Shown piece after piece: positions 11,913 through 59,003 of a DNA stretch of 64,000 nucleotides. This DNA is from a virus. The notes under the pieces are model-generated. The model had not been told where the DNA came from and did not search any database. It saw nothing but the letters and a program-made list of their open reading frames with translations. The first letter of the stretch is position 1. Every line of letters starts with the position of its first letter. Both the position numbers and the translations under genes were made by a program. Location of the stretch: positions 186,001 through 250,000 of IMG/VR virus record IMGVR_UViG_3300025133_009608; one strand, written 5' to 3'.

Positions 11913-11957
11913 AGGGATTTTATTCTAAAATATAAATGAGCATAACCCTGATAATCA

Positions 11958-12689: not shown

Positions 12690-12710
12690 TAGGCTGCCCT
12701 TGGGCTTCAA

Positions 12711-13145: not shown

Positions 13146-13189
13146 CCGAAAGCCTCCGCGCTTACGTTATTATAATATATTACTATTTT

Positions 13190-14244: not shown

Positions 14245-14315
14245 AGCTCCTCCTTTAAATATTAGACTGCCTTTGTGTATTATGTAGTTATCAATAATAG
14301 TTATTAAAAATTGTG

Positions 14316-17336: not shown

Positions 17337-17431
17337 TCTCCGCCTCCAAGCTGGGCTATCACAATCAGGATTACCAGTATATATAAAAATATTAACTGTT
17401 TTAAGCTGTGCGAAGAATTAGATGGCTGAAT

Positions 17432-18640
17432 TTATTCTATTTCATATTGCCCAACATCTATCACCACAAGGTCGCCTATATCTCCATGACTATTTTTTTC
17501 AATTCTTTGCATAATGTTATTTGCATGCAAGTCATTCCATAAGATTCCAGCGCTTTTTAGCTCCATTATCGCAGAAAACAAAGATCGAGTTTCTGGTGCA
17601 TATTCTTCAAAATATAAAAACCCCTCCTCTTGGCCATCGTATGACTCCCTTGGAGGGAAGACTCCGTCACGCGGCTTATTGTACTTTGGAAGAGGTCTTT
17701 TTGGAGATGAAAAATATTTATTTAATGATATTATGTAATGCTTTATAAAAATTTCCACCAAATCTTTGGACCCATAAAAATCTGAAAATGATGCCCGAAT
17801 ATTATTAGATATAAGTTCGGATTCAGAATGGACATCTTCTATAGATATCACTCCCTTGAATATATCAGACTCTAAATTCGTTGTCACAAATGATACCTTT
17901 GTTGCAAATTTCAAGAATGAAGCAATGCCATCCTGCTCTTCTTCTGTTTCGCTTGCGGACTTAACGACAGAAACCAGCGCATCGCCCATGGCTCTTATGA
18001 GGGCTTTGTGGATAAATTCTTCATCTTTCTTCTTATCGCTGGTCTTATCACTCCTTCCTCTTAAGAGGTTATTTATTTCCGCAGAATAGGGGCCTAGCTT
18101 TTCCATTATAATTACCGTTCCAAGGAGAGAGTGTGACCTTCCGGCTCTACTTTCAGAGCTGACCTTATTCATATCTATAATAGCTTTTATCTCTGGGAGG
18201 TGCCTTTTTGCATTTGCACTTATATTGGAGTTTTTTATCTTCCGCCAAACAGCGGGCTCCGGATCTGTTGTATCAACAATTTTTGCGATCGATGGGCCGT
18301 TTTGATATAACACTTCAAATATATCTCCATATTTTGACTTTATATGATGACCCTCTGTTGCGTTTACTCCGCCAATATATTTAATCGGAATTATGCCGTG
18401 CCCCCTTAGGCCTTCTTCCTTTGCTCTGATCGCCTCTTGGCGCCGCAATTGGGCCTGATAAATATCAGCTTCTCGCCTCGCCTCAGCTCGATCTCTTTGC
18501 TCTTGGGTTGGCTCTCTATAGGGAATTACACGAGTGGCGTCGATGCCAGCAGTCGCGATTAGCCAATATTTGTGAATTAACCCCGGGGTGAGAGCTTGCT
18601 TTAATAATTCTGATATTTTATTTATTCTAATTTTATTCAT
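17432..18640 (-). CDS. Divergent kinase-like protein with long N-terminal extension
   Basis: A 402-residue protein. Residues 1-110 hold a short helix then a highly charged Arg/Glu/Gln-rich coiled region. The kinase-like part has an IAKIVD candidate Lys strand, VIIMEKLGP as a hinge-like strand (about 179-187), and at the C-terminus AGILWNDLHANNIM, a catalytic-loop D-x4-N match (D370, N375), then LVVIDVGQY with D395 as DFG-equivalent. It stops seven residues later. ABC1/aminoglycoside-phosphotransferase-type families also use such loops. With 11958-12689 this makes two C-terminally short kinase-like proteins. Confidence 0.65.
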   Translation of the reverse strand: MNKIRINKISELLKQALTPGLIHKYWLIATAGIDATRVIPYREPTQEQRDRAEARREADIYQAQLRRQEAIRAKEEGLRGHGIIPIKYIGGVNATEGHHIKSKYGDIFEVLYQNGPSIAKIVDTTDPEPAVWRKIKNSNISANAKRHLPEIKAIIDMNKVSSESRAGRSHSLLGTVIIMEKLGPYSAEINNLLRGRSDKTSDKKKDEEFIHKALIRAMGDALVSVVKSASETEEEQDGIASFLKFATKVSFVTTNLESDIFKGVISIEDVHSESELISNNIRASFSDFYGSKDLVEIFIKHYIISLNKYFSSPKRPLPKYNKPRDGVFPPRESYDGQEEGFLYFEEYAPETRSLFSAIMELKSAGILWNDLHANNIMQRIEKNSHGDIGDLVVIDVGQYEIE

Positions 18641-18738
18641 GATTTTGTAGATTATTTTACTAAAGGCCGCAACTATGTTCTCAACTATTAATAGTTAATA
18701 ATAAACTATAATAACCCATTAAATCCTGGAGAAAGAAA
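18641..18738 (+). promoter_or_regulatory. Divergent promoter region with TATAAT and strong ribosome site
   Basis: The interval separates a leftward and a rightward gene. On the plus strand TATAAT lies at 18707-18712, and GGAGAAAG precedes the ATG at 18739. The dyad CTATTAATAG (near 18685-18694) could be an operator. Confidence 0.6.
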
Positions 18739-19152
18739 ATGGCAGTAACAATTCAAACGCTTAGAGATGCAGAACTTGACGCTACAATAAAAATAGTCTG
18801 TGATGGCGATGGAGATGGCGGAACGACGATAAATATATCTGACCTAAGTGGCGCAGAGGATGACGGAACTGACAGGGTCAGCATATCAAGAATGATGCTA
18901 ACGGCAAACGGCTCCGTATCGATAGAGTGGGATGCCGATAGTGGCGTGCTCGCGGCCCAGCTAACCTCGGGGCAGACCGATTGGACAATGACCCTGCCGA
19001 ATAATGCTGGGGCGGGAGTTACCGGAGATCTTATTGTTACCTCTGGAGATGCAATCACTCACTTTACGATGATCTTGTTCCTAAAGAAGGTTGCCGGGTT
19101 CGAGGGGTCTGCGCTATCATACAGAAAAGTTATGCCACCACGTCGGGCATAG
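18739..19152 (+). CDS. Probable virion structural protein
   Basis: A 137-residue, beta-rich, Asp/Gly/Thr-rich protein beginning MAVTIQTLRDAELDATIKIV and with a Trp-containing core near residues 55-75. The pattern resembles small capsid-decoration or neck-type proteins of marine T4-like phages. One of few rightward genes; it has its own promoter and an excellent ribosome site, suggesting high expression. The assignment is by resemblance of composition and opening sequence only. Confidence 0.6.
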   Translation: MAVTIQTLRDAELDATIKIVCDGDGDGGTTINISDLSGAEDDGTDRVSISRMMLTANGSVSIEWDADSGVLAAQLTSGQTDWTMTLPNNAGAGVTGDLIVTSGDAITHFTMILFLKKVAGFEGSALSYRKVMPPRRA

Positions 19153-19168
19153 TGCTTGCCTTCGCGCG

Positions 19169-20404
19169 CTATACGGTCTCTGATCCTCCGCCACCTCTGG
19201 GGCCTTGCAGGAACGCAAGGCCGTCTTGGCTTACAGAGTTGATCTTTACGTGAACGTGTGGGTCGGGGCGCCGAGTTTCGTCCCCAATGCGTGCGTCGAC
19301 AAGCCCGCGCGAAACCGCCTCTCTTGCAACCTCAAGTGCTCCTGGGGTATTTCTAAGATCAAATGCAATACCGAGGGCGTGATTTGATATTGGATTGCTC
19401 TCTAAGTATATCGCAGCACAACTTACTGCTTCAGATCTGTCTTTTCCTTCGAAGCAATCCGCTATAGCGGCAGCGCCGACGTCATCCCTATAGAGGTCAA
19501 TGAGATAGGCCCGTCCTGCGCCATTCTCATCTCCTCCGTTATTTATATAATTGTGATACATTACGCCCGCCTGGTGGGCCGATCCCCGAAAGGCGGATGT
19601 CATAACCAGCGCTGGCATGCCCATTGTTCTTGCGAGGTTTGCCATTATATCCGCCGCATTTTTTGCATCCTCACTCAGTCCGCTATAGTTGATTCCGGCT
19701 TTTTGCTCAATTGGCTCGATTACCGCTGAGCTTTCCGTCTTCAGTATGGCACCCTCCAGGTGGCTCAATAGGTAGTCGCGCCTCGTCATATTTAGCCTGC
19801 GAACGTTCCCGTAATACCCGCGCCGTCCGAGAGCATCAACCAGCCCTCTCGCAAGGCTGAGGTCTTCGTGGGCGGCTCCTCTTTCTCTCCCGAACAATGT
19901 CCCATCATCAAGTCTCTGAATTAGTTCCATGACCTCTCTTCGGACCCCTGGCCACGGCCTCTGTGTCCCGTCACTTTCCCATAGAACTTGCTCAGCAGCT
20001 GTTATCGCTGGAGCTGCAACGGCACCCACTGGGGATGTCTCCTGCGGGACATCCGACGTGACAGTGGGTGCCGTTGCGCTGCCTCTTGGGGTCTCTTGGG
20101 ATTGCTCCCCCACCGGGTATAGAGCCCACTTGTCTTCGAGGCCTTTTAATATTCTATATACGGAAGTTCGAGGCCCAAATATCTTCCCGATGCCATTCCC
20201 CTCTTTGGTTTGCAAGACTTCGAATTCATCTCTGGAGTAGTGATACCTAAAGGCATAAGGCTTATACCTGGTGCCGTCTTCCGATGGCTCCCAGAAGTCA
20301 ATATAAGTGACGCTCGCCAGGCGGATGACAAGGCCCGACTCTTCAACGGCCCCTGCGGCCTCTAGGTATTCTGCCAAAGCATTTATTTTTTCTTTATAAT
20401 TCAT
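19169..20404 (-). CDS. Modular lysin with M15 (VanY-type) peptidase domain
   Basis: A 411-residue protein. The N-terminal domain (1-95, including the INALAEYLEAAGAVEES helix motif) and middle domain (140-222) are paralogous to the lysin at 10626-11846, joined here by a Thr/Ser/Pro/Ala linker instead of PAPE repeats. The C-terminal domain has the M15 zinc peptidase signature SNHALGIAFD at 340-349 (His342, Asp349) and HVHV at 383-386 with the third zinc ligand. It should cleave peptide stems or cross-bridges in peptidoglycan. Upstream lies the TGCTAATTT-N6-TATAGA element. Confidence 0.85.
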   Translation of the reverse strand: MNYKEKINALAEYLEAAGAVEESGLVIRLASVTYIDFWEPSEDGTRYKPYAFRYHYSRDEFEVLQTKEGNGIGKIFGPRTSVYRILKGLEDKWALYPVGEQSQETPRGSATAPTVTSDVPQETSPVGAVAAPAITAAEQVLWESDGTQRPWPGVRREVMELIQRLDDGTLFGRERGAAHEDLSLARGLVDALGRRGYYGNVRRLNMTRRDYLLSHLEGAILKTESSAVIEPIEQKAGINYSGLSEDAKNAADIMANLARTMGMPALVMTSAFRGSAHQAGVMYHNYINNGGDENGAGRAYLIDLYRDDVGAAAIADCFEGKDRSEAVSCAAIYLESNPISNHALGIAFDLRNTPGALEVAREAVSRGLVDARIGDETRRPDPHVHVKINSVSQDGLAFLQGPRGGGGSETV

Positions 20405-45728: not shown

Positions 45729-46128
45729 CGCCCTCTATGACAAAGTTCATGCCACTAAGGCCTCCTTTTGCGTCCGGCTCTCCCCCGAAAAATGCAGAAA
45801 AATTATTATCTTCACCATCATCAATGTGGTTAAGCATCGATTTTGGAATCGACATTGCGCTTTCATCATAATGCAATCTATTTTCTGGAAAAGAAGTATC
45901 AGCTGCCTTTGCTGGCTCTCCCTCTTCGGGTCCAAGGTGCTGAATTGGAGCCGATGCCCCCTTTTCGAGTATGCTCATCGCTGAGACCTTGCTTTTAAAT
46001 ATCAAGTATAATTGTCCATCGGACCTCACCACTAGGTTTTCATCGCTTGTCGACTCAACGATCCCCGTTAGGGTCCATCCTCCGTCTAAAAACAGCGCGG
46101 CTGTTAGTCCTTCTAATTTGTGCTTCAT
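45709..46128 (-). CDS. Sm/Hfq-like barrel protein
   Basis: A 139-residue protein. Residues 8-52 (LTAALFLDGGWTLTGIVEST, then ENLVVRSDGQLYLIF) form a Sm-fold pattern of bent strands, as in Hfq. The rest is acidic and disordered (FFGGEPDAKGG, DDDPKE). It might bind RNA or an ssDNA end; in the helicase transcript it could act in replication or mRNA control. It overlaps the loader gene by 20 bases. Confidence 0.6.
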   Translation of the reverse strand: MKHKLEGLTAALFLDGGWTLTGIVESTSDENLVVRSDGQLYLIFKSKVSAMSILEKGASAPIQHLGPEEGEPAKAADTSFPENRLHYDESAMSIPKSMLNHIDDGEDNNFSAFFGGEPDAKGGLSGMNFVIEGDDDPKE

Positions 46129-46727
46129 TGTATTAACCCAAGTTGTTTCGCTCTACCTATAAGGGCAGCTTCTGGCTCATGGGGCGAAAGCGAATATGTT
46201 TCTATATATCTTTTTATAATCTCTAAGTCATCAGTGGTTTCAATTTGGTGCTCGGATGCTAGGCTGGGATGAGTTTCCTTGCACCATTCGGCTAATATTT
46301 TGAATTTATTCTTTTCATTATGCTTTTTTAGCATTGAATCATACATCCTTTCAAATTCATTGATCATTGATGGCATTAAAAACAATCCAGTACCAGTAAC
46401 GGATTTTTCACCACTTCTAAACTTATAATTAAACATCCATGATATATAATTTGAAATTTTTACCGTCAAATCGAGCTTTGTCTTTTTTCTTTCCTCATCG
46501 CCCAATTCATCATAATTTTCTGGGGCCAAAGTTTTAAATAATTTTGCGAAGTCACGGCTCTCCTTTCCAAGGCCTGGGCTCCCATTCCACCTGACCAGCC
46601 TAAAGTTTACGCCATTTTTATTTCGATACTCATGGCAAAATAGTGCCATAAGAGTGATGTGATTCCATGATTTTTTTGGCTTTGATATCCACTTTGGTAT
46701 ATTCTCATAAAATTCTTCTTGAGTCAT
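46125..46727 (-). CDS. Hypothetical protein in the replication block
   Basis: A 200-residue helical protein; possible helix-turn-helix-like segment near the C-terminus (about 180-195). No family recognised. Its overlap with both neighbours places it in the helicase-loader unit, where a primosome accessory role is plausible but unshown. Confidence 0.6.
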   Translation of the reverse strand: MTQEEFYENIPKWISKPKKSWNHITLMALFCHEYRNKNGVNFRLVRWNGSPGLGKESRDFAKLFKTLAPENYDELGDEERKKTKLDLTVKISNYISWMFNYKFRSGEKSVTGTGLFLMPSMINEFERMYDSMLKKHNEKNKFKILAEWCKETHPSLASEHQIETTDDLEIIKRYIETYSLSPHEPEAALIGRAKQLGLIQ

Positions 46728-47263
46728 TTGGAGTCCTCGTCTGGATTGAATACTGAAAAACTAACCCTGCCGTCGTCGACCGCTCGTCGGATCGCCCGCT
46801 GCACCTTGCTTAGCGAGCTTCCTCCGGTCTTTACGTCAAGGAATATAATCTGCTCTATATCTTGCGCAACACCTTCTCGAACTCGGGCCAGTCCGTCAAA
46901 AACTACAAAATCGATGGGCGCGGCAAAGAATCTAAAATCCTTTGGGTCCAGGCCGGTCTCCATTGCGAATGGAGCGAAATGTTCTGCCGTCTGCCCGCGA
47001 GTTATCGATTTAGATTTTTCTACTGCATCTTTTCTGATGTGCCGCTCTCTGATTTGCATCCAGTTTTCATACTCTGACTTAATTCTCTCCTCCAGCCTTC
47101 TCATCTCCAACTTGTGGCGATCAGAGATAACGCCAAGCTCTGTCTTTAGGGCCATATTTTGCATCTCTACGCCATTAGGCAGAGGCTTCGGCCTTGACAA
47201 GTAGAGAGACCCCAAGAGTGCTCCTATAAATATTATCAGGGCAAAAATCATAACATATTCCAT
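46724..47263 (-). CDS. Holliday-junction-resolvase-related nuclease, membrane-anchored
   Basis: About 179 residues from ATG 47263 (GGAGATTTTT upstream). One N-terminal transmembrane segment (about 1-22), a coiled coil, then a nuclease-like domain with SRGQTAEHFAPF-type sequence (here SITRGQTAEHFAPF), APIDFVVFDG and IIFLDVKTGGSSLSKVQ (core D..D-x-K of the PD-(D/E)xK fold). This order matches predicted endonucleases related to archaeal Holliday junction resolvases. Membrane anchoring of a recombination nuclease is notable. Confidence 0.8.
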   Translation of the reverse strand: MEYVMIFALIIFIGALLGSLYLSRPKPLPNGVEMQNMALKTELGVISDRHKLEMRRLEERIKSEYENWMQIRERHIRKDAVEKSKSITRGQTAEHFAPFAMETGLDPKDFRFFAAPIDFVVFDGLARVREGVAQDIEQIIFLDVKTGGSSLSKVQRAIRRAVDDGRVSFSVFNPDEDSK

Positions 47264-47332
47264 AAAAATCTCCGGATGCATATATGGTACCAATGCGGAC
47301 AGAACATGTCTAAAAAAACTAATTAAAACTTT

Positions 47333-48871
47333 TCAGGTCCACTCGATTATCTTCCTATCTGGGTACTTCTTTAGTGGGATGTTTCTAGACATTATTATTT
47401 TGAATCCCGGTTCGCTCTGATAAACTTTTATTCGAGCCTCAGAGTGATCTCTTAGATACTTGCAGTTATCAAAAAACTCTACGACAATGGCCTTCTTTTT
47501 CCCCTTGTTTTTTCTGATAACCCTGCCAATTCTCTGAAGTGCTCTTCCGCTGGACTTGCCCGAGCCGGCAAGAATTAACGCATCAAGACTGGGGATGTCG
47601 ACGCCCTGATCAAAAATCTTTGAGGCGATTAGCAAGTCCAGGTTTCCATCTTTCATCTTCTGAATGGCCTCCATTCTATTCTTCGTGCTTCGAGCGCCGT
47701 CCAAAAACTCAACCCTATACTCATCTTGCAGCCTTTCCATAAGAAGCTTGCCATGGGCAACTCTAACTACAAGAATTAGAACTTTTCTTCCGCCATCTAT
47801 TAGCCTTCTCGCGGCCTTTATGATGAGATCGTTTCGCTCCTCGTTCTCTACGATATAATTTTTATACACTTCGTGATATGTCTTGCCAACCTTTCGCATG
47901 GTTGGGACGTTTAAAAAATGTATATCCGGAGGAACCAAGTACTCCTCCCTGATTAGCTTTGTGGCACTGATGTCAACAATTTTTGGGCCAGCCACAGCCT
48001 CGATTAGAAGATCATCCCCGCCATCCCGCCATGGCGTTCCAGAGAGCAAGAACCTGTGTCGAGCAGATGTCGAGGCTTTGTGCAAGAACTGCAAAGTCTC
48101 AGATGCCGCATATTGGCACTCGTCAAAAATAAACAATTGAGCATTCTCAACCGCCGCCCTAACGCTTTCCTTGTTAAGGGCTTTGATATGTTTTTTTGAA
48201 TCTTGAGTTGTATCATTATCTATCGTCTTAACTTTTTTGTTAAATGCAGCAGCAGCAGACCAGATTGTCATTATCGTGATGTCTTTTGACACATCACATT
48301 CTCCGCCTCCGACGATTCCGCAGTCTATCCCATAGGCGTCTTTCATTGTATCTTTCATTTGATATAATAATTCAATCCCAATAACATAGATTACAGTTGG
48401 TATATTGTAATGCGCAGCGATAGAGCAGAGCATAAATGCCTTCCCCGAGCCTGTAGCTGACTTTATTATTCCGCCTCCGGACTTTATGGATGATCTTAGC
48501 GCCTTCTGCTGATAGTCTCTCGGCTCAAATGCCTCCGGGAGCATCTGGATTGGCTCGCCATACTTTGGAACTGGGCGATTATCGATTATTTCATACGTCA
48601 ATTTGTTTTCATCTAAAATTTTTGTCACTATCTTTAGTAGGCCTATATGGCATTTCCCATATTTTGTCATGAGTCGGACTTGCCCATCCCAGCCGCCCTG
48701 GCTCCCTCTCGCTCCGAACCCTCCGCGACCGCCCTGCATATATTTGTACCCAGGATGCTCGTAGCTAGTCGCCTCATCTATGATCTTCGTAACCTCCTGT
48801 GGAATGAATCCGCTTATTTTGCAGTTAACATTATCCAGAGAAATAGAAATTATATCGTCTTCACTGCTCAC
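47333..48871 (-). CDS. UvsW-like SF2 helicase
   Basis: A 512-residue DEAD/DEAH-type helicase/annealing enzyme. An N-terminal DNA-binding part (1-115), then motif I ATGSGKAF (Ala instead of the usual Thr/Ser after GK), motif II DECQ, motif III SGTPW, and motif VI QRIGRVIR. The order and length match T4 UvsW, which acts in fork regression and the switch from R-loop to recombination-dependent replication. The Ala in motif I is unusual and may lower ATP turnover. Confidence 0.9.
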   Translation of the reverse strand: MSSEDDIISISLDNVNCKISGFIPQEVTKIIDEATSYEHPGYKYMQGGRGGFGARGSQGGWDGQVRLMTKYGKCHIGLLKIVTKILDENKLTYEIIDNRPVPKYGEPIQMLPEAFEPRDYQQKALRSSIKSGGGIIKSATGSGKAFMLCSIAAHYNIPTVIYVIGIELLYQMKDTMKDAYGIDCGIVGGGECDVSKDITIMTIWSAAAAFNKKVKTIDNDTTQDSKKHIKALNKESVRAAVENAQLFIFDECQYAASETLQFLHKASTSARHRFLLSGTPWRDGGDDLLIEAVAGPKIVDISATKLIREEYLVPPDIHFLNVPTMRKVGKTYHEVYKNYIVENEERNDLIIKAARRLIDGGRKVLILVVRVAHGKLLMERLQDEYRVEFLDGARSTKNRMEAIQKMKDGNLDLLIASKIFDQGVDIPSLDALILAGSGKSSGRALQRIGRVIRKNKGKKKAIVVEFFDNCKYLRDHSEARIKVYQSEPGFKIIMSRNIPLKKYPDRKIIEWT

Positions 48872-49275
48872 TGCTCACTTTTCCTTTCCCTCTTATTCCA
48901 TCGGCCTCGTTCTGAAAATTTTTCAATTCCATGTGGTACCGGTTCGCCGAACTCATCTAGCGCTACAAAAATAATTTTATCAATCGTAATGAGAGACTTC
49001 TTGTCCCTCTTGTTCCTAACCAACACCTTGAGTGTTATCGATGTCGTCCCGAATTCTACAATTTCTGTTCCAAACTCAATAACATCACCAGATTTTGCAG
49101 AATTTAAAAAATTAATTTCAGACATATGAACGGTAACTACATTTCTTGTGCCTAGTTGACAAAATACAAAAATGCTTGCTTCTTCGTCAATTAGCGATAA
49201 AAGCCTTCCGCCAAAGAGGGTGCCCCTTGGGTTTAAATCTTGTGGCTTTACAAGATAACGGCTTCTAAATTTCAC
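48868..49275 (-). CDS. Hotdog-fold acyl-CoA thioesterase
   Basis: About 135 residues from GTG 49275, which overlaps the amidase stop (GTGA) with GGAAAG upstream; a longer reading from TTG 49326 lacks a ribosome site. Hotdog motif DLNPRGTLFGGRLLSLIDE with the catalytic-type Asp/Glu helix, then strands, as in the YciA/BACH type. It would hydrolyse acyl-CoA. A thioesterase is unusual phage cargo and may alter host lipid metabolism. Confidence 0.85.
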   Translation of the reverse strand: MKFRSRYLVKPQDLNPRGTLFGGRLLSLIDEEASIFVFCQLGTRNVVTVHMSEINFLNSAKSGDVIEFGTEIVEFGTTSITLKVLVRNKRDKKSLITIDKIIFVALDEFGEPVPHGIEKFSERGRWNKRERKSEQ

Positions 49276-50207
49276 TTTATCTTTCCAGCCTCTTTGCATA
49301 AGGTTGCAATATCTAGGCCGGCGCAATCGATTTTCTTTTTAGTTAAGTGATAATGACTCACAAACCCACTAAAACTACAGGCTACGGCACTGGGAGAGAC
49401 TCCGGAGACGCCCAGTCCGCCATCATCAGTTGGCGACACAAGGGGGATTTCAATTCCGTTACTAATGGCCGCCCACAAAGCCTTTAGAGCTCTTATCTGC
49501 ACGTCATAAAAGCCCAAGTGAGAAGACAGCTTCTTTCCTCTTACTATTGCGTTCGTAACTACGGGCCTTTTGCCAAATCCATTATCAACGTACCAATCTT
49601 GATATTTTTCATAATAAGCATTTGAAATCTCAACGCCAATGGAGCTGTGATTCCATTTCGCGCCGCCGGCGTGCCACGCTCCATGCTGAGTATCTAGCAA
49701 CTGATATATTGTTCCATCATTATCTATACAAAAATGTACTGATATTCCTCTGTTATTAAGAACGCTGGCACAAGACGCCGAAGACAAGCAAACATCCCAA
49801 TGATTTACAAACATAGTTGGCTTCCGGTCTTCCTTTCCTGAATAATCATAATAATTTCCAGAGCCCGCCTTAAGTCCACCGGACTCATCCCACAAGACCA
49901 CCTTATGCCATCTTATGGGCAGTGGCTTGCCGTTGTGAATTATATATTTTTCGTCACTACAGGCCTCGAGACCACTGGGCGCCGAGGTATCAGCGCTCGG
50001 CAAGTGGCTTGAGATATTCGCTTGGCGCTCAGTCCATATTCTTCTATATGTGGACGGACCCACTAATCCATCTGATTTTATCTTATTCTTTTTTTGCCAC
50101 TTCTTTACTGCATCAACCAGATCGTCGTCAAAATTGACAACTCCAAACCAGGTTGGATCCCATGATAATTTTTCGGCACTTGCAGAGTTATAAAAGTTTT
50201 TATCCAT
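49272..50207 (-). CDS. N-acetylmuramoyl-L-alanine amidase (Amidase_2) with binding domain
   Basis: A 311-residue protein. An N-terminal peptidoglycan-binding repeat (LVDAVKKWQKKNKIKSDGLV, about 27-46, then STYRRIW) and an Amidase_2-type zinc amidase domain: zinc His in VNHWD, GISVHFCIDNDGTIYQL, GAWHAGG with the second His, and GVEISN. A C-terminal module of about 60 residues follows. It cleaves the muramoyl-L-Ala bond. With the lysins at 10626, 19169 and 32379 this gives four cell-wall enzymes. Confidence 0.9.
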   Translation of the reverse strand: MDKNFYNSASAEKLSWDPTWFGVVNFDDDLVDAVKKWQKKNKIKSDGLVGPSTYRRIWTERQANISSHLPSADTSAPSGLEACSDEKYIIHNGKPLPIRWHKVVLWDESGGLKAGSGNYYDYSGKEDRKPTMFVNHWDVCLSSASCASVLNNRGISVHFCIDNDGTIYQLLDTQHGAWHAGGAKWNHSSIGVEISNAYYEKYQDWYVDNGFGKRPVVTNAIVRGKKLSSHLGFYDVQIRALKALWAAISNGIEIPLVSPTDDGGLGVSGVSPSAVACSFSGFVSHYHLTKKKIDCAGLDIATLCKEAGKIK

Positions 50208-50211
50208 AACA

Positions 50212-52635
50212 TTACCGTCTGCGTCTCTTGTCTATGATAGAGCCGCGCTGAAGCTTGTTAAAGCCCGACTTCTTCTTCTTGATTTTTCTGTGAACCTGGT
50301 CGGCAACGGTGTTAACGTTATCCTCTTCAAGATCGAGGGTCATTGCTGCCACTCTTCCTTTTTCTTTTTGGCCGGCGACCTCTGCCTGCATTCTGCTCTC
50401 TTGTTTGAGGCTTTCAATTCGGTCCCTGGGAAGCCCGAGTCCGGCGAACCAAGAGTAAATCTTTATGGAATCGGAGTCACTCTCTATGTCGTATACTCCC
50501 TGGAATACGGAGGCTCCGTTTGTTTGCTCTGAAATCATATGAAAACAATAATTTATATTTATTGCCGGAAGCTTGTTAAGAACGCCCTCTGGGGCTGAAA
50601 TTATAACTCCACCGACCCTAGTCTGAGAGATGTCAAAGCCAGATGCCAACATATTCCCACTAAGACTCTCTATTACCGCCTCTGCTAGCGCCGTCTCCTC
50701 CATATAATCTTCAACTTCAATCATCCCATAAACAGAGCAGTCTCCGCATGAGATTATCTTTCCAAAGTCACTTGGATCCATTGAAGTATATCGAGACGGA
50801 CGAGACGTAAGTGTATTAAATACATGAAGCGGTTCAACAATTGCATTGTTAGATACGCTCCAAAAGTTATTCTGACTGAGGTTAGAATAAATTTGCTCGA
50901 TTCTCGCATTATCAGCCACAATAAGACTCGAAACCATATTGTCAGAAGTCATTCTTGCAAGTCTAGAAAGGGTTTCTATCGAGTTTCGCTTAGACCGGGC
51001 GTCCTCGGTTGCCTTCGGAAGAATGTAAATCACCCCCACTGGCATGCCGGTCTCAAATAACATCCCCACCATAGTGTCAACGCTTGAAGAGCCCGTTCCG
51101 CCGCCGCCCGATATTGCCAAATAAACCATGTGGTTTCCCGCAGCAACGTCTCCTACGAACTTATGTATATCGGACTCGTTTTCTTCAAAAATCTCTCGAC
51201 CAAGATCCAGATCCTTTCCCGTCCCACCAAGACTGCCCTCAAGAAGCAGCTTCTGAGTGGGAAGAACATCTATAAACTCCAGGTCTTGCGCGGAAGTATT
51301 AATTACTCCAACGTCATATCCTTTTTTATGCATTGTTTCTGCAATTCTCGACCCGGCCTGACCGACACCTATTACTGCTATCTCAATGCTGACAGACTGC
51401 TGAGTTATTATGCTTGGCACATCGTCCTCCATAGTTTTGCTTACCTTGGCCCTTAGAGCCTCAAGGACGTTTTCATCCAAAGAGCTTCCAGAATCTTCGG
51501 GCTGCTCTGTCGAATCATCAAAGGCGTCCATGAGTGCCTCATTTTCAGCCTCAATTTGCTTTGTTTTTTTCGTCTTCTTCTTTATCTTTACATCTTTGAC
51601 GCTAGTTTTCTTCGCTGTCATAAAATCCTCATAATAGCTCTTGAGCTGTGTTAAAATTTGATATTCGCTGGTTATCGCAAATTTTACCGGAGTTTCGTTT
51701 GCATTATACGAAATAACATCACAAAGATACTTGGAATGTTTATTCATAGGATCGGCATTCGTAGTTATTATATCACACCCCATCGCAGAGGCCTCATAGA
51801 GACTCATGCCCAGACCCTCTCGGGTTGACGGCATTAGCACACAATGAGAATTGTCATAAATACTAACCAGGTCTTTCGACACTAATATAGAATTTATTAG
51901 TATGATATTCTTACATTTTTCAGCCAGGGCCCGATCCCTATCAGAAAGAAGCCCGCTTATTGTCAGGGTTGTGCTCGCTCCAGAGTTAGTTGAGAATTTC
52001 GTATATGCCTTAATTACTTCTGTTGTATTTTTCTGACTAAACGATGGGTTTGTAGACCCGGGATGAAAAAATCTTATGCCAGAAAGGTCTTTTTTGTCTA
52101 CCTTTCGAGAAAAGGTGTCTTGATTTACGTAATTCCAGGACATTTTTTTTGCGTTTTCATATTTCCCAAAGATCTCTTTTGATGTATCTGTCAGGCACCA
52201 TATTTCATCAAACGTTCTGTATGAATTGTTATCTATATACCTCTTTATCGACCACTCCGGCATTGGTATGTCTATAATTTTCAAATTTGGGTTGCCCGTC
52301 CTGGCCCTTGTTGTCCATTGAGCCTTCGGCATGAAGGTTTCGAATGATATTATAAGATCTATATTATTTTTGGCAACAATATGTTCGATCCGAGTAGTTT
52401 GCGCGACAATTGTCAACCCGGCATGCAGATTGGCGTCGTTTGGCCGGGGGTACACCGGAGAGAATCCCGCCCGGCCATGAAGTCTTTTGAACTTTGGCTT
52501 TGCAGTATAAATAACTTTATTGTTTTTCGACAGCATGTCTCCAAGAGATTTCGCCAAATAATAAAGACCCGACTCGAATAGATACGTCTTTATTAGAATG
52601 CTCTTGTTTTTAATGTTATCTACTTCGCTATCCAT
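50212..52635 (-). CDS. Glycosyltransferase-FtsZ/tubulin fusion protein
   Basis: An 807-residue single frame. Residues 1-338 are a GT-B (family 4-type) glycosyltransferase with the C-terminal donor motif STREGLGMSLYEASAMGC (E-x7-E). Residues 340-415 are a Lys-rich then acidic linker. The rest is a tubulin/FtsZ-type GTPase: IAVIGVGQAGSR, the tubulin signature SGGGGTGSS (about 509-517) and a T7-loop candidate MDPSDF with Asp620 and Asp623. A strong internal start (GAGG plus ATG at 51621, residue 339) could give a 469-residue GTPase alone. Jumbo-phage tubulins centre the replicating genome; a linked glycosyltransferase is new to me. Confidence 0.85.
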   Translation of the reverse strand: MDSEVDNIKNKSILIKTYLFESGLYYLAKSLGDMLSKNNKVIYTAKPKFKRLHGRAGFSPVYPRPNDANLHAGLTIVAQTTRIEHIVAKNNIDLIISFETFMPKAQWTTRARTGNPNLKIIDIPMPEWSIKRYIDNNSYRTFDEIWCLTDTSKEIFGKYENAKKMSWNYVNQDTFSRKVDKKDLSGIRFFHPGSTNPSFSQKNTTEVIKAYTKFSTNSGASTTLTISGLLSDRDRALAEKCKNIILINSILVSKDLVSIYDNSHCVLMPSTREGLGMSLYEASAMGCDIITTNADPMNKHSKYLCDVISYNANETPVKFAITSEYQILTQLKSYYEDFMTAKKTSVKDVKIKKKTKKTKQIEAENEALMDAFDDSTEQPEDSGSSLDENVLEALRAKVSKTMEDDVPSIITQQSVSIEIAVIGVGQAGSRIAETMHKKGYDVGVINTSAQDLEFIDVLPTQKLLLEGSLGGTGKDLDLGREIFEENESDIHKFVGDVAAGNHMVYLAISGGGGTGSSSVDTMVGMLFETGMPVGVIYILPKATEDARSKRNSIETLSRLARMTSDNMVSSLIVADNARIEQIYSNLSQNNFWSVSNNAIVEPLHVFNTLTSRPSRYTSMDPSDFGKIISCGDCSVYGMIEVEDYMEETALAEAVIESLSGNMLASGFDISQTRVGGVIISAPEGVLNKLPAININYCFHMISEQTNGASVFQGVYDIESDSDSIKIYSWFAGLGLPRDRIESLKQESRMQAEVAGQKEKGRVAAMTLDLEEDNVNTVADQVHRKIKKKKSGFNKLQRGSIIDKRRRR
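51614..51635 (-). promoter_or_regulatory. Internal ribosome binding site and ATG for the tubulin half
   Basis: Minus strand TGAGGATTTTATG: GAGG five bases from an in-frame ATG (51621), exactly where the glycosyltransferase domain ends. It supports separate translation of the GTPase module as well as the fusion. Confidence 0.6.
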
Positions 52636-52705
52636 TTAAATATCTTACCATAGTGCATTATTTTAGACCAACTTATCTCATTCTACTCTTGAATATTAAT
52701 AGCGA

Positions 52706-53650
52706 TTAAAGAGAGCCGAGAATTTCGCAATACTTAGAAAACAAAGCCTCGGATGAGAAGTTTTCAACGGCATACTCATAAGCTCCAGCCTTCAAATTTC
52801 CACGAAGCCTTTCATCTTCCATTATTTCAATTATTGCCTCAGAATAGTCCTCAATCGTCTTATTAACGATGATTCCGGTCTCATAGTTTTTGCCATGCAA
52901 ATATATTTTAGGATGAGTTACGGAGCAGACGCCAGACGCCCAACTCTCCATAAGGGTTTGGGATTTTGTTTCAGATATTGACGTACCAACGTATAAGCTG
53001 GCGCTTTTAGCTAAGTCAATATGATCAGAATATGAATATGGAGAAGGGTGCCCTATAAATTTAAAATCATATTGTGGCAAAGCCTTTTCCAACTTCAGGC
53101 CAAAGCCTATATCTTTCGCAAAATGCTTAGAGTTTCCCTTCCACATAATAAACCCAGCATCATTATCGCTAGGCTTCCACAGCTCCATCTCTGGCCCAAC
53201 AATGAGAGTCGACATTTTCCTCAAATCAAATTTATGTTCTTTCGCTATTTTATATTTCAACCTATCATTTACAGATAACACATAGTTCGGAGCAGCCATC
53301 CCAAGTAGTGTCGATTCTCTCTTTAGATCTACACAGTCCAAGACGTTTGGGCCCATTATCAACGGAGTCCCAGTATTATTTGAAATCTTTCCGGCGACTC
53401 GATAATGCCCCCCGCTGCCGCTCCAATGATGAGCATAGTCAGACCCCTCAATGCTTCTTTTTAGTCTTGCGATATCTACAATTGAGTAATAATTAATTCC
53501 ATCAAGTTTTTGCTCTACTTTTAGTGTGGTAAATATATCTATTTGAAATCGTTTATCCATTGCCTTTATAAAATTATACAGGGACATTCCGGGGCCATTT
53601 GTAAACCGCCTTGTAGCCCCTACATTGAATGCAAAAATTGTTATTTTCAT
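52706..53650 (-). CDS. Glycosyltransferase (GT-B, family 4-like)
   Basis: A 314-residue protein. GT-B fold opening with MKITIFAFNVGATRRF and a GPGMSLYNFIKAM glycine loop, and a C-terminal donor-binding region SASLYVGTSISETKSQTLMES (split E-x7-E: ETKSQTLMESWASG). Transfers a sugar from a nucleotide donor. Its end overlaps the start of nothing; its ATG overlaps the sulfotransferase stop by four bases, so the two are cotranscribed. Confidence 0.85.
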   Translation of the reverse strand: MKITIFAFNVGATRRFTNGPGMSLYNFIKAMDKRFQIDIFTTLKVEQKLDGINYYSIVDIARLKRSIEGSDYAHHWSGSGGHYRVAGKISNNTGTPLIMGPNVLDCVDLKRESTLLGMAAPNYVLSVNDRLKYKIAKEHKFDLRKMSTLIVGPEMELWKPSDNDAGFIMWKGNSKHFAKDIGFGLKLEKALPQYDFKFIGHPSPYSYSDHIDLAKSASLYVGTSISETKSQTLMESWASGVCSVTHPKIYLHGKNYETGIIVNKTIEDYSEAIIEIMEDERLRGNLKAGAYEYAVENFSSEALFSKYCEILGSL

Positions 53651-54504
53651 TTTAAGATTTTACCAACTTCACCTGTAAGCTTGGGATATATTTTATAAGA
53701 CAATTCGAAGAGCTCGTCGTCAAAAAGCCCCAGGAATCTATCGTCTTTTAAATATCTCTTCCAGCGACTCAAAACTTTCATTTCCTGAGCCGCCCCATTC
53801 TTCGTTGTTAGGTCAAAGCTGCTTCCAAACCCATTAGATGGTACCTTGGAGATTCCCTTGTCCGAAAAGTCCAAATCCAATTTTTTGGATATTTGCTTTC
53901 GATACTTTTCTGACAAAAACCATTCGTTATAAGATATAGAAATCGAATCCCCAAGAAAAGATGTCTCTCCTAGAAGCTCTCTTGCATGCTCTTTCCATCT
54001 TTCCGCCATTCTATTGTCTGCCCATCCGATTTCGCTGGTTTGATCTATATTCTTTTTGATAGAGATTAGGCTCTTTCCTTCCTCTTTTCGAATGGTGTTA
54101 TTTCTATCAAACAATCTTATTCTACTCGCAAATAAGTTAAACGGATCCCGCAAGATTAAGATCTTATATAGCCTCTTCGGCCTTCTCAGTTTCATCAGAC
54201 TTTTTGGGTCCTTTTTGTACTTTATCATTCTTGCAAGAGATGAGTCTTCACAGTTAAATGCGAAGTATGGGAGGTTCGCCGGGAATGGAGACCCACTTCC
54301 GATTATTCGTCCACGATCCACATACATATTCGGCGGCTTGTGGCATATGATGTCATTATGAAAATAAATTGGCTCTTTAGTTTGAGAAAAAATCCAATGC
54401 ATTACCGCATGATGTCCCGATCTTCTCATCGCATAAAACTCGAGTTGATTTTTTACCGACCGAAACTTACGACGACACCCCTTAAGCTTCGCGGCCATAA
54501 TCAT
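53647..54504 (-). CDS. Sulfotransferase-like protein
   Basis: A 285-residue protein. MRRSGHHAVMHWIF (26-39) matches the 5-prime phosphosulfate-binding loop, and LILRDPFNLFASRI (about 116-129) the 3-prime phosphate-binding segment of PAPS sulfotransferases. It would place sulfate on a sugar or protein. Combined with the neighbouring glycosyltransferase, cupin sugar isomerase and GMD, it suggests a sulfated, GDP-mannose-derived decoration. A host or virion acceptor is unknown. Confidence 0.8.
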   Translation of the reverse strand: MIMAAKLKGCRRKFRSVKNQLEFYAMRRSGHHAVMHWIFSQTKEPIYFHNDIICHKPPNMYVDRGRIIGSGSPFPANLPYFAFNCEDSSLARMIKYKKDPKSLMKLRRPKRLYKILILRDPFNLFASRIRLFDRNNTIRKEEGKSLISIKKNIDQTSEIGWADNRMAERWKEHARELLGETSFLGDSISISYNEWFLSEKYRKQISKKLDLDFSDKGISKVPSNGFGSSFDLTTKNGAAQEMKVLSRWKRYLKDDRFLGLFDDELFELSYKIYPKLTGEVGKILK

Positions 54505-54850
54505 CTTCTATGCGAACAACGTCGTCCAACTGATGCGTTGATACCTCAATCAATTCCACGTTTACTTCATTTGCGGCAAACCGATGAGTCAGGCCGACCG
54601 GAACATGAAACGTCTGCCCTGGAAATAATTTTATTATCTTTAAATCCGTCATATCGTTGAACGCTCCCCTGGTGTGCAGATAAAGGATTCCAGACTTAAC
54701 CATTATGGTTTCTTCCTTTTCCTCATGATACTGAAACGACAGTTGGTGCCCAGCTTTAATGAACAATATTTTCCCCACATATCCCGATTCGGAGCAAGAC
54801 TTCGCCCAGATCTCTTCGTGTCCCCAAGGTTTTTCGACTTTACTTAGCAT
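54482..54850 (-). CDS. Cupin of the mannose-6-phosphate isomerase type II family
   Basis: A 122-residue single cupin: EKPWGHEEIW opening, GHQLSFQYHEEKEETIMV (metal His/Glu set) and PVGLTHRF with the third His. It matches the isomerase half of bifunctional mannose-1-phosphate guanylyltransferase/isomerase enzymes. It could turn fructose-6-phosphate to mannose-6-phosphate, feeding GDP-mannose to GMD at 58020. No guanylyltransferase is seen here. Overlaps the sulfotransferase by 23 bases. Confidence 0.8.
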   Translation of the reverse strand: MLSKVEKPWGHEEIWAKSCSESGYVGKILFIKAGHQLSFQYHEEKEETIMVKSGILYLHTRGAFNDMTDLKIIKLFPGQTFHVPVGLTHRFAANEVNVELIEVSTHQLDDVVRIEDDYGREA

Positions 54851-54851
54851 T

Positions 54852-56969
54852 TTAAGCCAAATCAGATAGCATGGGCTCCGTGACGTCCCACTTCTCTAAA
54901 ATTTTATATAAATTAGCTATAGTTAAGCCTAAATGCTCTGCTGCTTTATTTTTATTACCATCAAACATCGACACGGCATCTTTTATATCCCTTACCGTTT
55001 TGTCCTGAAACTCTCTCCTGTATACGCTCAGTAGCTTCATTTCGAGATCCATCATATATCGATTTAAAGTTGACGAACTAATCCCAAGCTCCCTGGCCGT
55101 AGTGGTTGCAATTCCGCCATTATTAATAAGAGCTATATCAATTTTATTTCTAATCTCATCTGGAGTTAGCGATTTTGGCATATATCCTAAAATATCCACC
55201 CCGTAATATTCCAGCCGGGCGCTCAAGCCTCTATCATTTGTGCTTAGTGCCCGGGCCATTGCACTTTTATTGCCAAAATTTTCCTCCAGTATTCTTATGA
55301 ACTCCTCCCTACTGCTATCAAAATCTAAATCACGGTAGCTAATTCTACGCGCCTTTCCGCTTATTTCATATAGATCTATATTATTTCTTCTGACAACGGC
55401 TCTAATTCCACTCTCTGTTCTGTTTAGCTTTTTGGCAACAGCGTTTACGTCTCCATTTAGCTCATAAAGAGCAGCAACGACATCCTCCGCCGACACTGGC
55501 TGCTCATTATATAGAAGATCACTTTTATCAAATTTATATTTTTTCATCTTAGTGGCAAATGTGGCCGAGTGCATGTTGATCATCCGGGCCGCCTCGGCAA
55601 TTGAGTGGCTGGATTTTAGTGCATTTAAAATGCTACTCGATTCAGCGTCTTCTACTCTCTTTTTTATTTCATCAATATTTATCCCGAGCGTCCTCATCTC
55701 AATTCTAAGCGTTATTCCGGGCCTTTTTATTTTTCTTGATGTCTCTTTTACATTCCCATTGTTAGCAATCAGCGTGTCAATAATAATCTTCTTTCTCTCT
55801 TCGTCTTTTTTTGTATCCCTGTAATCTTCCGGGTTTAGCCCAAACTTATCCGCATAATGCGCTAAGCTCTGGTACTTCACTCCCATCAACTTGGCGGCAA
55901 GAACTCGGTCTCCATTTGCCTCTACTAAAAACTTTTCTATCTCTGTTATCTTTCTCCTCTCTTCTGCCGCTCGCTCTTTTTCTCTTTCCTCTTTGATGAT
56001 GTTTTTTGCATCAGAGATTTTACTACCAAAATCTGGATGTGCCTCTTCAAATATGTCGATGACTTTTCCCTTTAGCCACCAGGCCGCATCTATAACTTCC
56101 AAATCGGCAGCCTCCATGGAGTCCATATAATTTATGATTTCAAATTCTGGTTTAGACTTTATTTTGTCAGAATAGTAACTATTACTCGCACCAGAGGGAT
56201 ACGGAGAATGGGGATCGCTCTTCAGTATGTTGCACCTATTTCCGCCGCGAGCATGGTCTTTTCCATATTTTTCTTCAACATCTTTATATATCGAAACCTC
56301 AACTCCCAAGAATCGCCTTCTAAAGGACTCCTTGGACTCGCCATCGCTCCTCTCTATGGGCTCTAGGTGGACCATTTCTATCGGCTTATGGAGCGTAGTC
56401 CAGGCTGCGCCACATCGAATATGAGAATTGCCCTCGGTATAATCCGCTGACATCTGATTTGGACCGCCGCCCGCCGCGGGACCATCAGAATTGGGGGAAA
56501 AAATATCACTTAAGCGCATCTTTCTGCTCATAAATTTTTCTACCGCGCCCTTGTCGAATGGCTCGGTATATAATTTTTTTATGGTATCAAGCCCGGCGGA
56601 CGTTACATATAGACGGCCGATTTTGTGCTGTAAGAGCCGCGTGATGGGATTCTTTGCCTCTCCGACATACCAGTTGTATATCGGCAGGCCCGTTAGTGCG
56701 TCGACCACTTGTTTTCCGTCAACTTTGTTTTCTAATTTTAATACATATATGTAGTGAACGCCATCTTGCAGCGGCCCCATTGCTGAAACCTCCTGCCCCG
56801 GCCCTATCCCTAGGTGTGGGATCGGAACTCTGCCGCGCGCGCTCTTTGATATTAGATGACTATAGTCGCAGTTATATGGCATGAGCTCGCCGACGGCGGC
56901 AGCGGCGTCTTTCAGCCCCATGTCCTCCAATATGCCTCGTAATAGTGGGATTTTATTAAATCCTTTCAT
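54852..56969 (-). CDS. GIY-YIG nuclease with seven-repeat HTH array
   Basis: About 705 residues from ATG 56969; a TTG 15 bases upstream is possible. The N-terminal third has a GIY-YIG nuclease core: HYIYVLKLE (about 93-101), YNWYVGEAKNPITRLLQH (about 119-136) and later GAAWTTLHKPIEMVHLE typical of this class. From about residue 340 to the end come seven repeats of roughly 45 residues, each of the form I...L..NGN...AA..L.....TL....K.G, like Fis-type helix-turn-helix units. The array could read a long or repeated DNA site and direct cutting; a homing or host-DNA role is possible. Confidence 0.8.
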   Translation of the reverse strand: MKGFNKIPLLRGILEDMGLKDAAAAVGELMPYNCDYSHLISKSARGRVPIPHLGIGPGQEVSAMGPLQDGVHYIYVLKLENKVDGKQVVDALTGLPIYNWYVGEAKNPITRLLQHKIGRLYVTSAGLDTIKKLYTEPFDKGAVEKFMSRKMRLSDIFSPNSDGPAAGGGPNQMSADYTEGNSHIRCGAAWTTLHKPIEMVHLEPIERSDGESKESFRRRFLGVEVSIYKDVEEKYGKDHARGGNRCNILKSDPHSPYPSGASNSYYSDKIKSKPEFEIINYMDSMEAADLEVIDAAWWLKGKVIDIFEEAHPDFGSKISDAKNIIKEEREKERAAEERRKITEIEKFLVEANGDRVLAAKLMGVKYQSLAHYADKFGLNPEDYRDTKKDEERKKIIIDTLIANNGNVKETSRKIKRPGITLRIEMRTLGINIDEIKKRVEDAESSSILNALKSSHSIAEAARMINMHSATFATKMKKYKFDKSDLLYNEQPVSAEDVVAALYELNGDVNAVAKKLNRTESGIRAVVRRNNIDLYEISGKARRISYRDLDFDSSREEFIRILEENFGNKSAMARALSTNDRGLSARLEYYGVDILGYMPKSLTPDEIRNKIDIALINNGGIATTTARELGISSSTLNRYMMDLEMKLLSVYRREFQDKTVRDIKDAVSMFDGNKNKAAEHLGLTIANLYKILEKWDVTEPMLSDLA

Positions 56970-57009
56970 AGTAATAGGTCTCAAATTATTAGTAAGGATT
57001 TAGAATTCA

Positions 57010-57336
57010 TTAAAATGATACACTCTCGCCGCAACCGCAAGTTCTATCTGCCTTTGGGTTGTTGAATACCAGGCCAGATTTCAAAAGGTCTTCTTCGTAG
57101 TCAATTTCCACTCCATTTAAGAATAAATAAGACTTCATATCAATACAAACTTTGACACCGTTGAACTCAAACACCTTATCCCTCTCTTCGGGCTGGTCTA
57201 TGAATTCATATTTGTACATATAGCCAGAGCAGCCGCCGCCCTGAAGTTTTATTCTAAGATAGTTATCTGGTGTTTGCCGCTTCATTAGAAGCGATCTTAC
57301 CTTGTCCTGCGCAGGTTGTGTCATTGTAATTGCCAT
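57010..57336 (-). CDS. IscA/HesB-type Fe-S carrier
   Basis: A 108-residue A-type carrier with the three ligand Cys: GGGCSGYMYKYEF (Cys36) and CGCGES (Cys100, Cys102). Accepts a cluster from the scaffold and passes it to targets. Encoded in the same block as Nfu and IscU. Confidence 0.93.
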   Translation of the reverse strand: MAITMTQPAQDKVRSLLMKRQTPDNYLRIKLQGGGCSGYMYKYEFIDQPEERDKVFEFNGVKVCIDMKSYLFLNGVEIDYEEDLLKSGLVFNNPKADRTCGCGESVSF

Positions 57337-57347
57337 TTTGTGCCAAC

Positions 57348-57611
57348 CTAGTAGTATGGGTTTGTGCCAGAAAGGTGATCGGTAACATCCTCAATCTCGC
57401 CGATATCTGGAAACACTTCTCTAAAATGTCTTTGGACTCCAAGCATCATAGTTATTTTTGATGATGCGCACCCATGACACCCTCCACCCATTATTATTTT
57501 AAGTGAATTGTCACTTTCATTGAATTCATGAATGGAAATGTTTCCTCCGTGCATTTCTAAGCCAGAATTTATATCTTCATCTATGATTTTCTGTATCTCT
57601 TCTTTATTCAT
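57348..57611 (-). CDS. Nfu-type Fe-S scaffold/carrier
   Basis: An 87-residue NifU-C-terminal-like protein with the CxxC cluster site MGGGCHGCASS (Cys45, Cys48). The start overlaps the IscU stop by eight bases, so IscU and Nfu are cotranslated. Confidence 0.92.
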   Translation of the reverse strand: MNKEEIQKIIDEDINSGLEMHGGNISIHEFNESDNSLKIIMGGGCHGCASSKITMMLGVQRHFREVFPDIGEIEDVTDHLSGTNPYY

Positions 57612-57996
57612 TCTCTATCCCACGTTTTTTCTTCCAATCACTGATTGCAGCCTTGATGGCATCTTCTGCAAGGACAGAGCAGTGAATTTTGACCGGCGGC
57701 AATGAGAGCTCTCTCGCAATATGGGAATTGGAAATAGCCTCCGCCTCATCGGTGGTCCTTCCGATGACCATGGTGGTCGCCAGTGAGCTAGAGGCCACGG
57801 CTGAGCCACACCCAAATGTCTTGAATTTTGCGTCCTCGATGATACCGTTGTCATTAATCTTGAGTTGCAGTTTCATCAAATCGCCGCAGGCTGGCGCGCC
57901 TACCATGCCAGTACCAACATTCGGATCAGACTTATCTAAGCTGCCCATGTTTCTTGGACTGTCAAAGTGATCCATTACCTTGTCTGAATATGCCAT
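57604..57996 (-). CDS. IscU Fe-S scaffold
   Basis: A 130-residue scaffold with all key residues: GAPACGDLMKLQL (Cys37, Asp39), FKTFGCGSAVASSS (Cys63) and LPPVKIHCSVLAEDA (His105, Cys106). LPPVK at 99-103 is the HscA chaperone recognition motif, at the same position as in bacterial IscU. Cluster assembly needs sulfur from a cysteine desulfurase, which is not encoded in this window, so host IscS is implied. Confidence 0.95.
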   Translation of the reverse strand: MAYSDKVMDHFDSPRNMGSLDKSDPNVGTGMVGAPACGDLMKLQLKINDNGIIEDAKFKTFGCGSAVASSSLATTMVIGRTTDEAEAISNSHIARELSLPPVKIHCSVLAEDAIKAAISDWKKKRGIENE

Positions 57997-58019
57997 TATA
58001 TCTCCAGATATATATCTAA

Positions 58020-59003
58020 TTATTGGCCAATTGCGCTCAGCATTTCCAGGTCGTTCTCATACATCTCTTTTAATAGCGCCTTCCAGTCATATTCTGGGTC
58101 CCAGCCGAGCTTCTCTCGAGCCTTGCTCGCGTCTCCTAGTAGGTATGGGACATCTGACGGTCTCAGAAATCTTTTATCCAACTCATATACTTCTTCAAAC
58201 TCCAGGCCGGCGAGATAACAAACGTACCTGAGCATTTCTCCTATTGTTGCTCCCGATCCTGTGGCTATGACGTAATTTTCCGGAGCTTCTTGCTGTAGCA
58301 TCAGCCACATCGCTTTTACATAGTCCTTGCTGCAGCCTTCATCTCTAAATGCGGACAGGTCGCCCATTTTCAACGTATCTTGAAGCCCCAACTTAACGGA
58401 AGCAACTCCGTGAGTTATCTTTCGAGCTGCAAAGCTCACGCCTCGGCGCAGAGAAGAGTGATTGAACAAAATTCCAGAAACGGCGAACAACCCATAAGCT
58501 TCTCGGTAATTATTTACGGACAGGTGAGCCGCACACTTAGAAATAGCGTAGGGAGAGCGGGGATTGAGGGGAGAGTTCTCGTTATACCCCTCCCTTGGGC
58601 AGTCAACTCCCCCTAGCATTTCGCTCGTGGAGGCTTGATAATAGCGAGTGGCCGGAGAGTAGTCTTTCAGCAAAGAAAGATGCATTATCACGGCTTCTGC
58701 GTTTACCTGAAATACCTTTACCGGATTCACAAAGCTGTAACCAACATGACTGGCGGCCCCTAGGTTGTAAAACTCATGAGGCTGTACGTCATGGATCAAC
58801 CGGCCGATAAAAATGGGATCAGAAAGGTCTCCCTCGGTGTAGTGGAAGTTTTCATCATCCATTAGATGAGCTATGTTCTCCGTTCCAGAATTAACGCTCT
58901 TGCGAATACTAACTCCAAATACCTCATACCCCTTACTTAGCAGAAATTCTGCCAAATATGAACCATCCTGTCCCGCCGTGCCTGTTATTATTGCCCTAAG
59001 CAT
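58020..59003 (-). CDS. GDP-mannose 4,6-dehydratase
   Basis: A 327-residue SDR enzyme: nucleotide loop TGTAGQDGSYL (7-17), catalytic STSE at 125-128 and YAISK (Tyr152, Lys156). Makes GDP-4-keto-6-deoxymannose, the precursor of fucose, rhamnose and perosamine. It fits the adjacent glycosyltransferases, cupin and sulfotransferase as a sugar-decoration module. Confidence 0.93.
   Translation of the reverse strand: MLRAIITGTAGQDGSYLAEFLLSKGYEVFGVSIRKSVNSGTENIAHLMDDENFHYTEGDLSDPIFIGRLIHDVQPHEFYNLGAASHVGYSFVNPVKVFQVNAEAVIMHLSLLKDYSPATRYYQASTSEMLGGVDCPREGYNENSPLNPRSPYAISKCAAHLSVNNYREAYGLFAVSGILFNHSSLRRGVSFAARKITHGVASVKLGLQDTLKMGDLSAFRDEGCSKDYVKAMWLMLQQEAPENYVIATGSGATIGEMLRYVCYLAGLEFEEVYELDKRFLRPSDVPYLLGDASKAREKLGWDPEYDWKALLKEMYENDLEMLSAIGQ

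Follow-up and report, generated by a model that had tools for sequence, protein, structure and literature searches.

The locus lies in a 64,000-nucleotide stretch, here called the window, of a jumbo-phage virus contig of 316,664 bp. A frame of 807 codons runs on the minus strand from an ATG at its 52635 end to a stop codon at its 50212 end (Table 1). The frame is uninterrupted under translation table 11, so a recoded stop or a frameshift is not needed to explain it, and the plus strand of the same segment is riddled with stops. The encoded protein matches the Pfam family Glycos_transf_1 (E = 4e-12, residues 200-298) and the Tubulin/FtsZ GTPase family PF00091 (E = 2.7e-14, residues 418-583), and both matches pass the curated cut-offs. 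An earlier sequence-only reading, which gave no strand, had described this frame as a GT-B glycosyltransferase (GT) joined to a GTPase with an SGGGGTGSS signature and a T7 Asp pair; the open frame and both domains are confirmed, and the signature and the Asp pair are present and conserved among the fused relatives described below.

Table 1. Features of the fusion locus and its neighborhood (positions in the window)
Feature	Position	Strand	Basis or remark
UvsW-like helicase, conserved downstream neighbor	47333..48871	minus	phrog_16 6.9e-76
Fusion ORF, GT4 glycosyltransferase + TubZ-like GTPase	50212..52635	minus	807 aa, 7 distinct sequences fused
TubZ-like tubulin gene proper, 469 aa from internal ATG	50212..51621	minus	alignments, 4EI7 matches
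Basic C-terminal tail FNKLQRGSIIDKRRRR	50215..50262	minus	pattern shared by fused and unfused rows and the distant branch
T7 loop Asp pair D620/D623 (DPSD)	50767..50778	minus	invariant in fused rows; aligns with TubZ 4EI7 T7
T4 GTP-binding loop SGGGGTGSS, residues 509-517	51085..51111	minus	alignment of fused rows
Tubulin N-terminal arm, residues 339-417	51385..51621	minus	low-confidence/disordered; in unfused tubulins too
Internal ATG, codon 339, tubulin gene start	51619..51621	minus	aligns with separate tubulin gene starts
GT part, GT-B/GT4, residues 1-338	51622..52635	minus	PF00534 4e-12, PF13692 3.8e-9
Internal Shine-Dalgarno GAGG within last GT codons (YYEDF)	51627..51630	minus	kept in fused and overlapping relatives
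GT4 E-x7-E motif EGLGMSLYE, residues 273-281	51793..51819	minus	E273/E281 invariant
Second GT4-type glycosyltransferase, sugar cluster	52706..53650	minus	PF00534 2.3e-6
Cupin / mannose-6-phosphate isomerase C-terminal-like, sugar cluster	54482..54850	minus	PF01050 2.6e-7
GDP-mannose 4,6-dehydratase-like, sugar cluster	58020..59003	minus	TIGR01472 1.1e-97, below its 415-bit cut-off

The two glutamates of the GT4 motif do not vary across 10 relatives, fused and unfused. Among the fused relatives, residues S509-G513 and G515-S518 of the T4 loop are invariant, with a single T-to-S change in the loop (in L004), and the Asp pair within MDPSD is unchanged in all of them. In AlphaFold (AF2) models, a check that the sequence-only reading had proposed, the two parts form separate domains with a helix across the junction (residues 324-344) followed by a low-confidence arm, in which pLDDT is mostly below 50 as compared to approximately 85 in the GTPase core; because the alignments are shallow, overall pLDDT reaches only 56-57, and the models answer the question of domain separation at this low overall confidence. 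What might be taken for a linker is, from the alignments, the tubulin's own N-terminal arm: the arm, including its element IExEN..L..AF, is also found in unfused tubulins, so it did not arise as a linker for the fused protein. Similarly, the pattern of the C-terminal tail, SxxF...L...(I/L)DxR / ..S(I/L)IDxRRxR, recurs in unfused members and in a distant branch of the family.

The solved structure nearest to the GTPase is TubZ/RepX of Bacillus cereus (4EI7), which ranks ahead of FtsZ by sequence (E = 8.7e-19) and by profile (3.2e-23) and also ranks first by fold (2e-15), the low-confidence AF2 model being good in the GTPase core only. The FtsZ equivalog TIGR00065 scored 58.9 bits against a cut-off of 295.2, and PhuZ of phages phiKZ and 201phi2-1, likewise a jumbo-phage member of the tubulin superfamily, was matched more weakly than TubZ (phrog_4733, 1.4e-4). 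We therefore assign the GTPase to the vicinity of TubZ rather than FtsZ, PhuZ, or CetZ, taking the TubZ group as TubZ (RepX) of Bacillus plasmids and others including phage c-st TubZ; the suggestion of a phage tubulin of the PhuZ or TubZ kind thus held for TubZ and failed for PhuZ. Shared with TubZ are the T4 and T7 motifs and the basic, flexible C-terminal tail. TubZ tails bind partners and shape filaments (PMC5322520), and because the fusion leaves the C-terminal end free, the arrangement would fit a working filament protein. In contrast to TubZ of type III partition systems, which has a cognate TubR gene and an iteron centromere, neither was found next to the window's tubulin gene: no small TubR-like HTH gene adjoins the tubulin in the loci that were read and no iteron-like array of direct repeats lies within 46000-57000. 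An adjacent TubR/tubC partition cassette was rejected on these grounds. Also unlike TubZ, the tubulin here is flanked by sugar genes and by a UvsW-like helicase gene, carries an N-terminal arm of approximately 75 residues and, in one clade, has an in-frame GT upstream.

Stand-alone tubulins in other phages offer two further comparisons. Bacillus phage G gp138, annotated as FtsZ-like, is a stand-alone jumbo-phage tubulin in a different neighborhood without a GT neighbor, and it is the only tubulin relative that a search of annotated phage records turned up (25% across 41% of the query). The best viral fold match is A0A6J5RW92, an 'FtsZ cell division GTPase' of an uncultured Caudovirales phage with 452 aa and no GT part (37% identity over 464 columns); thus, the stand-alone form of the window's tubulin family is already in public databases. 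Searches for two marker families of nucleus-forming phages bear on the earlier suggestion that the GT might modify a nucleus-like shell. Chimallin (phrog_4795) was undetected in the window genome and three relatives, in which the record may be fragmentary and a shell protein divergent, and phrog_3015, the beta family of the phiKZ-type RNA polymerase and the single subunit family tried, was undetected in the same four genomes; both were found in the phiKZ control. These results do not indicate a phage nucleus, we rejected PhuZ and a nucleus as candidates, and the idea of a shell as target is unsupported.

The same in-frame fusion is present in seven distinct IMG/VR sequences: the window (with its copy L002), L003 (identical to L009), L004 (identical to L008), L005, L006, L007, and L018. 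Over their full length, the other six share 57-63% identity with the window, and this recurrence rules out a sequencing or assembly error. The sequence-only reading had named a stop between the domains, or separate genes in relatives, as evidence against a fusion. No stop was found in the seven fused sequences; however, seven relatives of the same GT clade (L010, L033, L020, L043, L044/L045, L048, and L049) do carry two separate genes. In six of the seven, these genes overlap out of frame by 8-23 nt (13 nt in L043, 8 in L044/L045, and 23 in L048 and L049), while L020 has a gap. L033 is a MAG contig labeled Actinomycetota, and L043, L044/L045, L048, and L049 are jumbo contigs, several of them 330-395 kb. 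In L010 and L033, the GT frame reads ...GAG GAT/C TTT TAT GGA... and ends 14 nt inside the separate tubulin gene, the ATG of which follows GAGG after six bases. One reading of these overlaps is that programmed frameshifting or read-through also operates in the overlapping relatives, the fusion product being the ancestral selected output. The overlap in L010 does combine the Shine-Dalgarno-like GAGG with a T-run (GAGGATTTTTATG), but the separate-gene rows share no conserved slippery sequence, and their overlaps vary in length and frame, with L020 lacking one; we consider this reading very improbable.

The sequence-only reading had also placed GAGG-N5-ATG exactly at the domain junction, and this spacing is exact. 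Within the window alone, the site is no more than moderately unusual: of the 24 other ATGs inside the frame, four are preceded by a Shine-Dalgarno match at least as strong, and RNA structure at the internal start is average. We regard the site as exceeding chance because it is conserved across relatives and not because of the strength of the motif in the window. (G/A)AGGA followed 5-8 nt on by ATG is kept in all seven distinct fused sequences while the flanking residues vary, and the separate tubulin genes of the unfused relatives begin at the corresponding ATG, each with a Shine-Dalgarno-like sequence. The internal start is low in RNA structure in five of the seven fused rows (2-9% of windows along the ORF being less structured) and moderately low in L005 (17%). 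The Shine-Dalgarno sequence needs a Glu or Lys codon ending in G, which all fused rows have; in a codon-usage test, this has p ~0.008 when all seven rows are counted and ~0.03 when they are taken as five lineages. The rows are related, and we treat the test as weak and suggestive only. In these alignments, what stays constant at the junction is the ribosome-binding site and ATG of the tubulin itself. Because this ATG is the native tubulin start in unfused relatives, the internal start is very likely used, and the proposal that the GTPase could also be made alone is very likely correct. As in the Cas8c/Cas11c system, where an internal ribosome-binding site yields the C-terminal part as a separate subunit (PMC7684278), one frame would give a long protein and an internally started C-terminal part, and the conserved internal Shine-Dalgarno sequence and start within a long frame that characterize that type are present here. 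The difference is that the internal product there, Cas11c, joins the long protein in one complex as a small subunit, whereas the internal product here would be a whole filament protein with a gene of its own in relatives.

To order these states, a tree was built from the tubulin, the UvsW-like helicase, and the GT and rooted on ten stand-alone rows, which fall outside (100/100) a GT clade that is itself well supported (100/100). Five separate-gene rows lie near the base of this clade, and a nine-row clade (100/100) unites the seven fused rows with L010 and L033. Based on the relatives with two genes and the rooted tree, separate genes came first and the fusion is derived within one well-supported clade. 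L010 and L033 group with six of the fused rows against L005 (99/99), and forcing the fused rows together, with the outgroup omitted, cost 22 log-likelihood units (p-AU 0.033); a single clade of fused rows is permitted by the tubulin alone and disfavored by the combined data. GAGG and ATG are separated by 5 or 8 nt in the fused rows as compared to 6 in L010 and L033, and a one-base change would therefore suffice to switch between the fused and the separate state. On this sequence evidence, L010/L033 probably lost the fusion in a single event, through a change of 1 nt. Two gains of the fusion would be equally parsimonious with one gain and one loss, because the position of L010/L033 among the fused rows is ambiguous and both histories need two changes.

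The wider family shows a conserved setting. In a broader search, 88 contigs encode the tubulin, of which 80 loci (L069-L148) were retrieved, counted as contigs that were not dereplicated; the tubulin stands alone in every retrieved contig outside the fused set. Among the 74 loci with sufficient upstream sequence, the upstream neighbor is a sugar-nucleotide epimerase or dehydratase in 61, mostly within ~100 nt of the tubulin, the GT in 12, and neither in one, and a UvsW-like helicase lies at most 4 kb downstream in 70 of 71 loci. The order sugar gene, tubulin, helicase is thus conserved family-wide and in the window spans 47333-59003. A second large branch of the tubulin (L050, on a 434-kb contig, and relatives) is ~41-46% identical and has no GT neighbor. 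In L004, L006, L007, and L043, and probably in L125 and L132, the helicase is split at its Walker A region by an insert of 280-340 residues, probably an intein, which the window copy (47333-48871) does not have. Two further proteins of the window lie on the minus strand: one of 285 aa (53647-54504), inside the sugar cluster and without a Pfam or NCBIfam match, has an LRDP..LFASR motif that looks sulfotransferase-like by eye, and one of 710 aa (54852-56984) has several tandem Fis-type HTH repeats (HTH_8, 1.8e-21) preceded by an N-terminal region that on visual inspection resembles GIY-YIG. Elsewhere on this strand, several unrelated proteins encoded within 6983-20404 (e.g. at 11864, 18640, and 20404) share a similar amphipathic N-terminal segment of 30-40 residues, perhaps a sorting signal or a cleaved leader, and two adjacent lipoprotein-like secreted proteins (14873-17336) have by eye von Willebrand A-like DILFVVDNSGSMS motifs, which are unusual in a phage.

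We suggest that the locus consists of nested genes with two products, a free TubZ-like tubulin and a read-through GT-tubulin fusion, and consider this arrangement likely on the basis of the sequence comparisons. Two neighboring genes overlap, a GT4 gene ending the sugar-modification cluster and a TubZ-like GTPase gene starting a replication cluster, with the ribosome-binding site of the tubulin buried in the last codons of the GT; because the overlap is in frame in one jumbo-phage clade, a nested gene with two products would result. Initiation at the internal GAGG-ATG would give the free tubulin of 469 aa, probably the main product, while ribosomes translating the GT would meet no stop and make the 807-aa protein. 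The tubulin would polymerize in a TubZ-like manner and the fusion would enter filaments as a subunit carrying the GT on a flexible arm of ~75 residues; the separate domains and the low-confidence arm in the AF2 models are consistent with a fused subunit that sits in the filament with the GT hanging off. We infer that both starts are used, probably mostly the internal one, that the tubulin polymerizes and the GT is active, and that the phages tolerate the fusion or profit mildly from it without depending on it.

How much the 807-aa form matters can be judged from how the two parts evolve. In the close fused pair L006/L018, NG86 dN/dS is ~0.13 for the GT and ~0.03 for the tubulin, values that are rough because dS is near saturation and that place both parts under purifying selection. 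Together with the retained GT motif, a frame kept in seven diverged sequences and sugar-nucleotide genes that adjoin the tubulin across the whole family, this selection could mean that the 807-aa protein is itself the working form, its GT tethered to glycosylate the filament, its cargo or nearby targets and the internal ATG a relic. However, half of the clade has separate genes and L010/L033 apparently reverted to them, every fused row retains the internal Shine-Dalgarno sequence, the tubulin is slower to diverge (65-70% identity to the window as compared to 37-54% for the GT), and a GT neighbor is missing in the great majority of family members; we judge an obligate bifunctional protein to be distinctly unlikely. 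Glycosylation of the filament by the tethered enzyme is possible. Because the GT gene belongs to a sugar cluster and half of the clade encodes the GT as a free protein, something other than the filament could serve as the acceptor.

A variant of the nested arrangement would give the fusion a defined role: filaments would consist mostly of free tubulin, with nested translation setting the fraction of subunits that carry a tethered GT, and the tethered GT, acting along the filament or where the genome replicates, would add sugar to phage DNA, to parts of the virion or to the filament itself. We think this role, taken jointly with these targets, unlikely. Conversely, the same two-product anatomy might hold while the fusion is a functionless by-product and only the free tubulin matters, with the GT perhaps cleaved or minor. 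The drifting position of the overlap among relatives (8, 13, 14, or 23 nt, or a gap) fits such an accident, as do the ease with which an indel alone makes the fusion, its loss in L010/L033, and the small number of single substitutions that would be expected to create a stop while sparing the Shine-Dalgarno sequence. Yet purifying selection acts on the GT of the fused rows, none of which makes a free GT, and the frame is kept in seven of the nine rows of the clade, the spacers there differing only by 3 nt. We therefore regard a wholly neutral fusion as a serious but somewhat doubtful possibility.

Huge phages with tubulin homologs were already known (PMC7162821; PMC7824862). By comparison, we found no description of a tubulin-glycosyltransferase fusion in the open-access literature and none in the annotated phage records searched; what is new is that a jumbo-phage tubulin of the TubZ-like kind is nested in frame downstream of a glycosyltransferase gene. 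The nested arrangement and its relatives provide a stepwise natural record of two overlapping phage genes becoming one nested gene, and apparently coming apart again, with the embedded ribosome-binding site persisting throughout. They also bring to light a family of TubZ-like tubulins, large and so far little described, from uncultured jumbo phages that lack the known nucleus-forming genes tested; its genes nearly always have sugar-nucleotide enzymes on one side and a UvsW-like helicase on the other. Should the fusion be incorporated into filaments, it would be the first case, to our knowledge and as judged from the open-access literature, of an enzyme physically anchored to the cytoskeleton of a phage.
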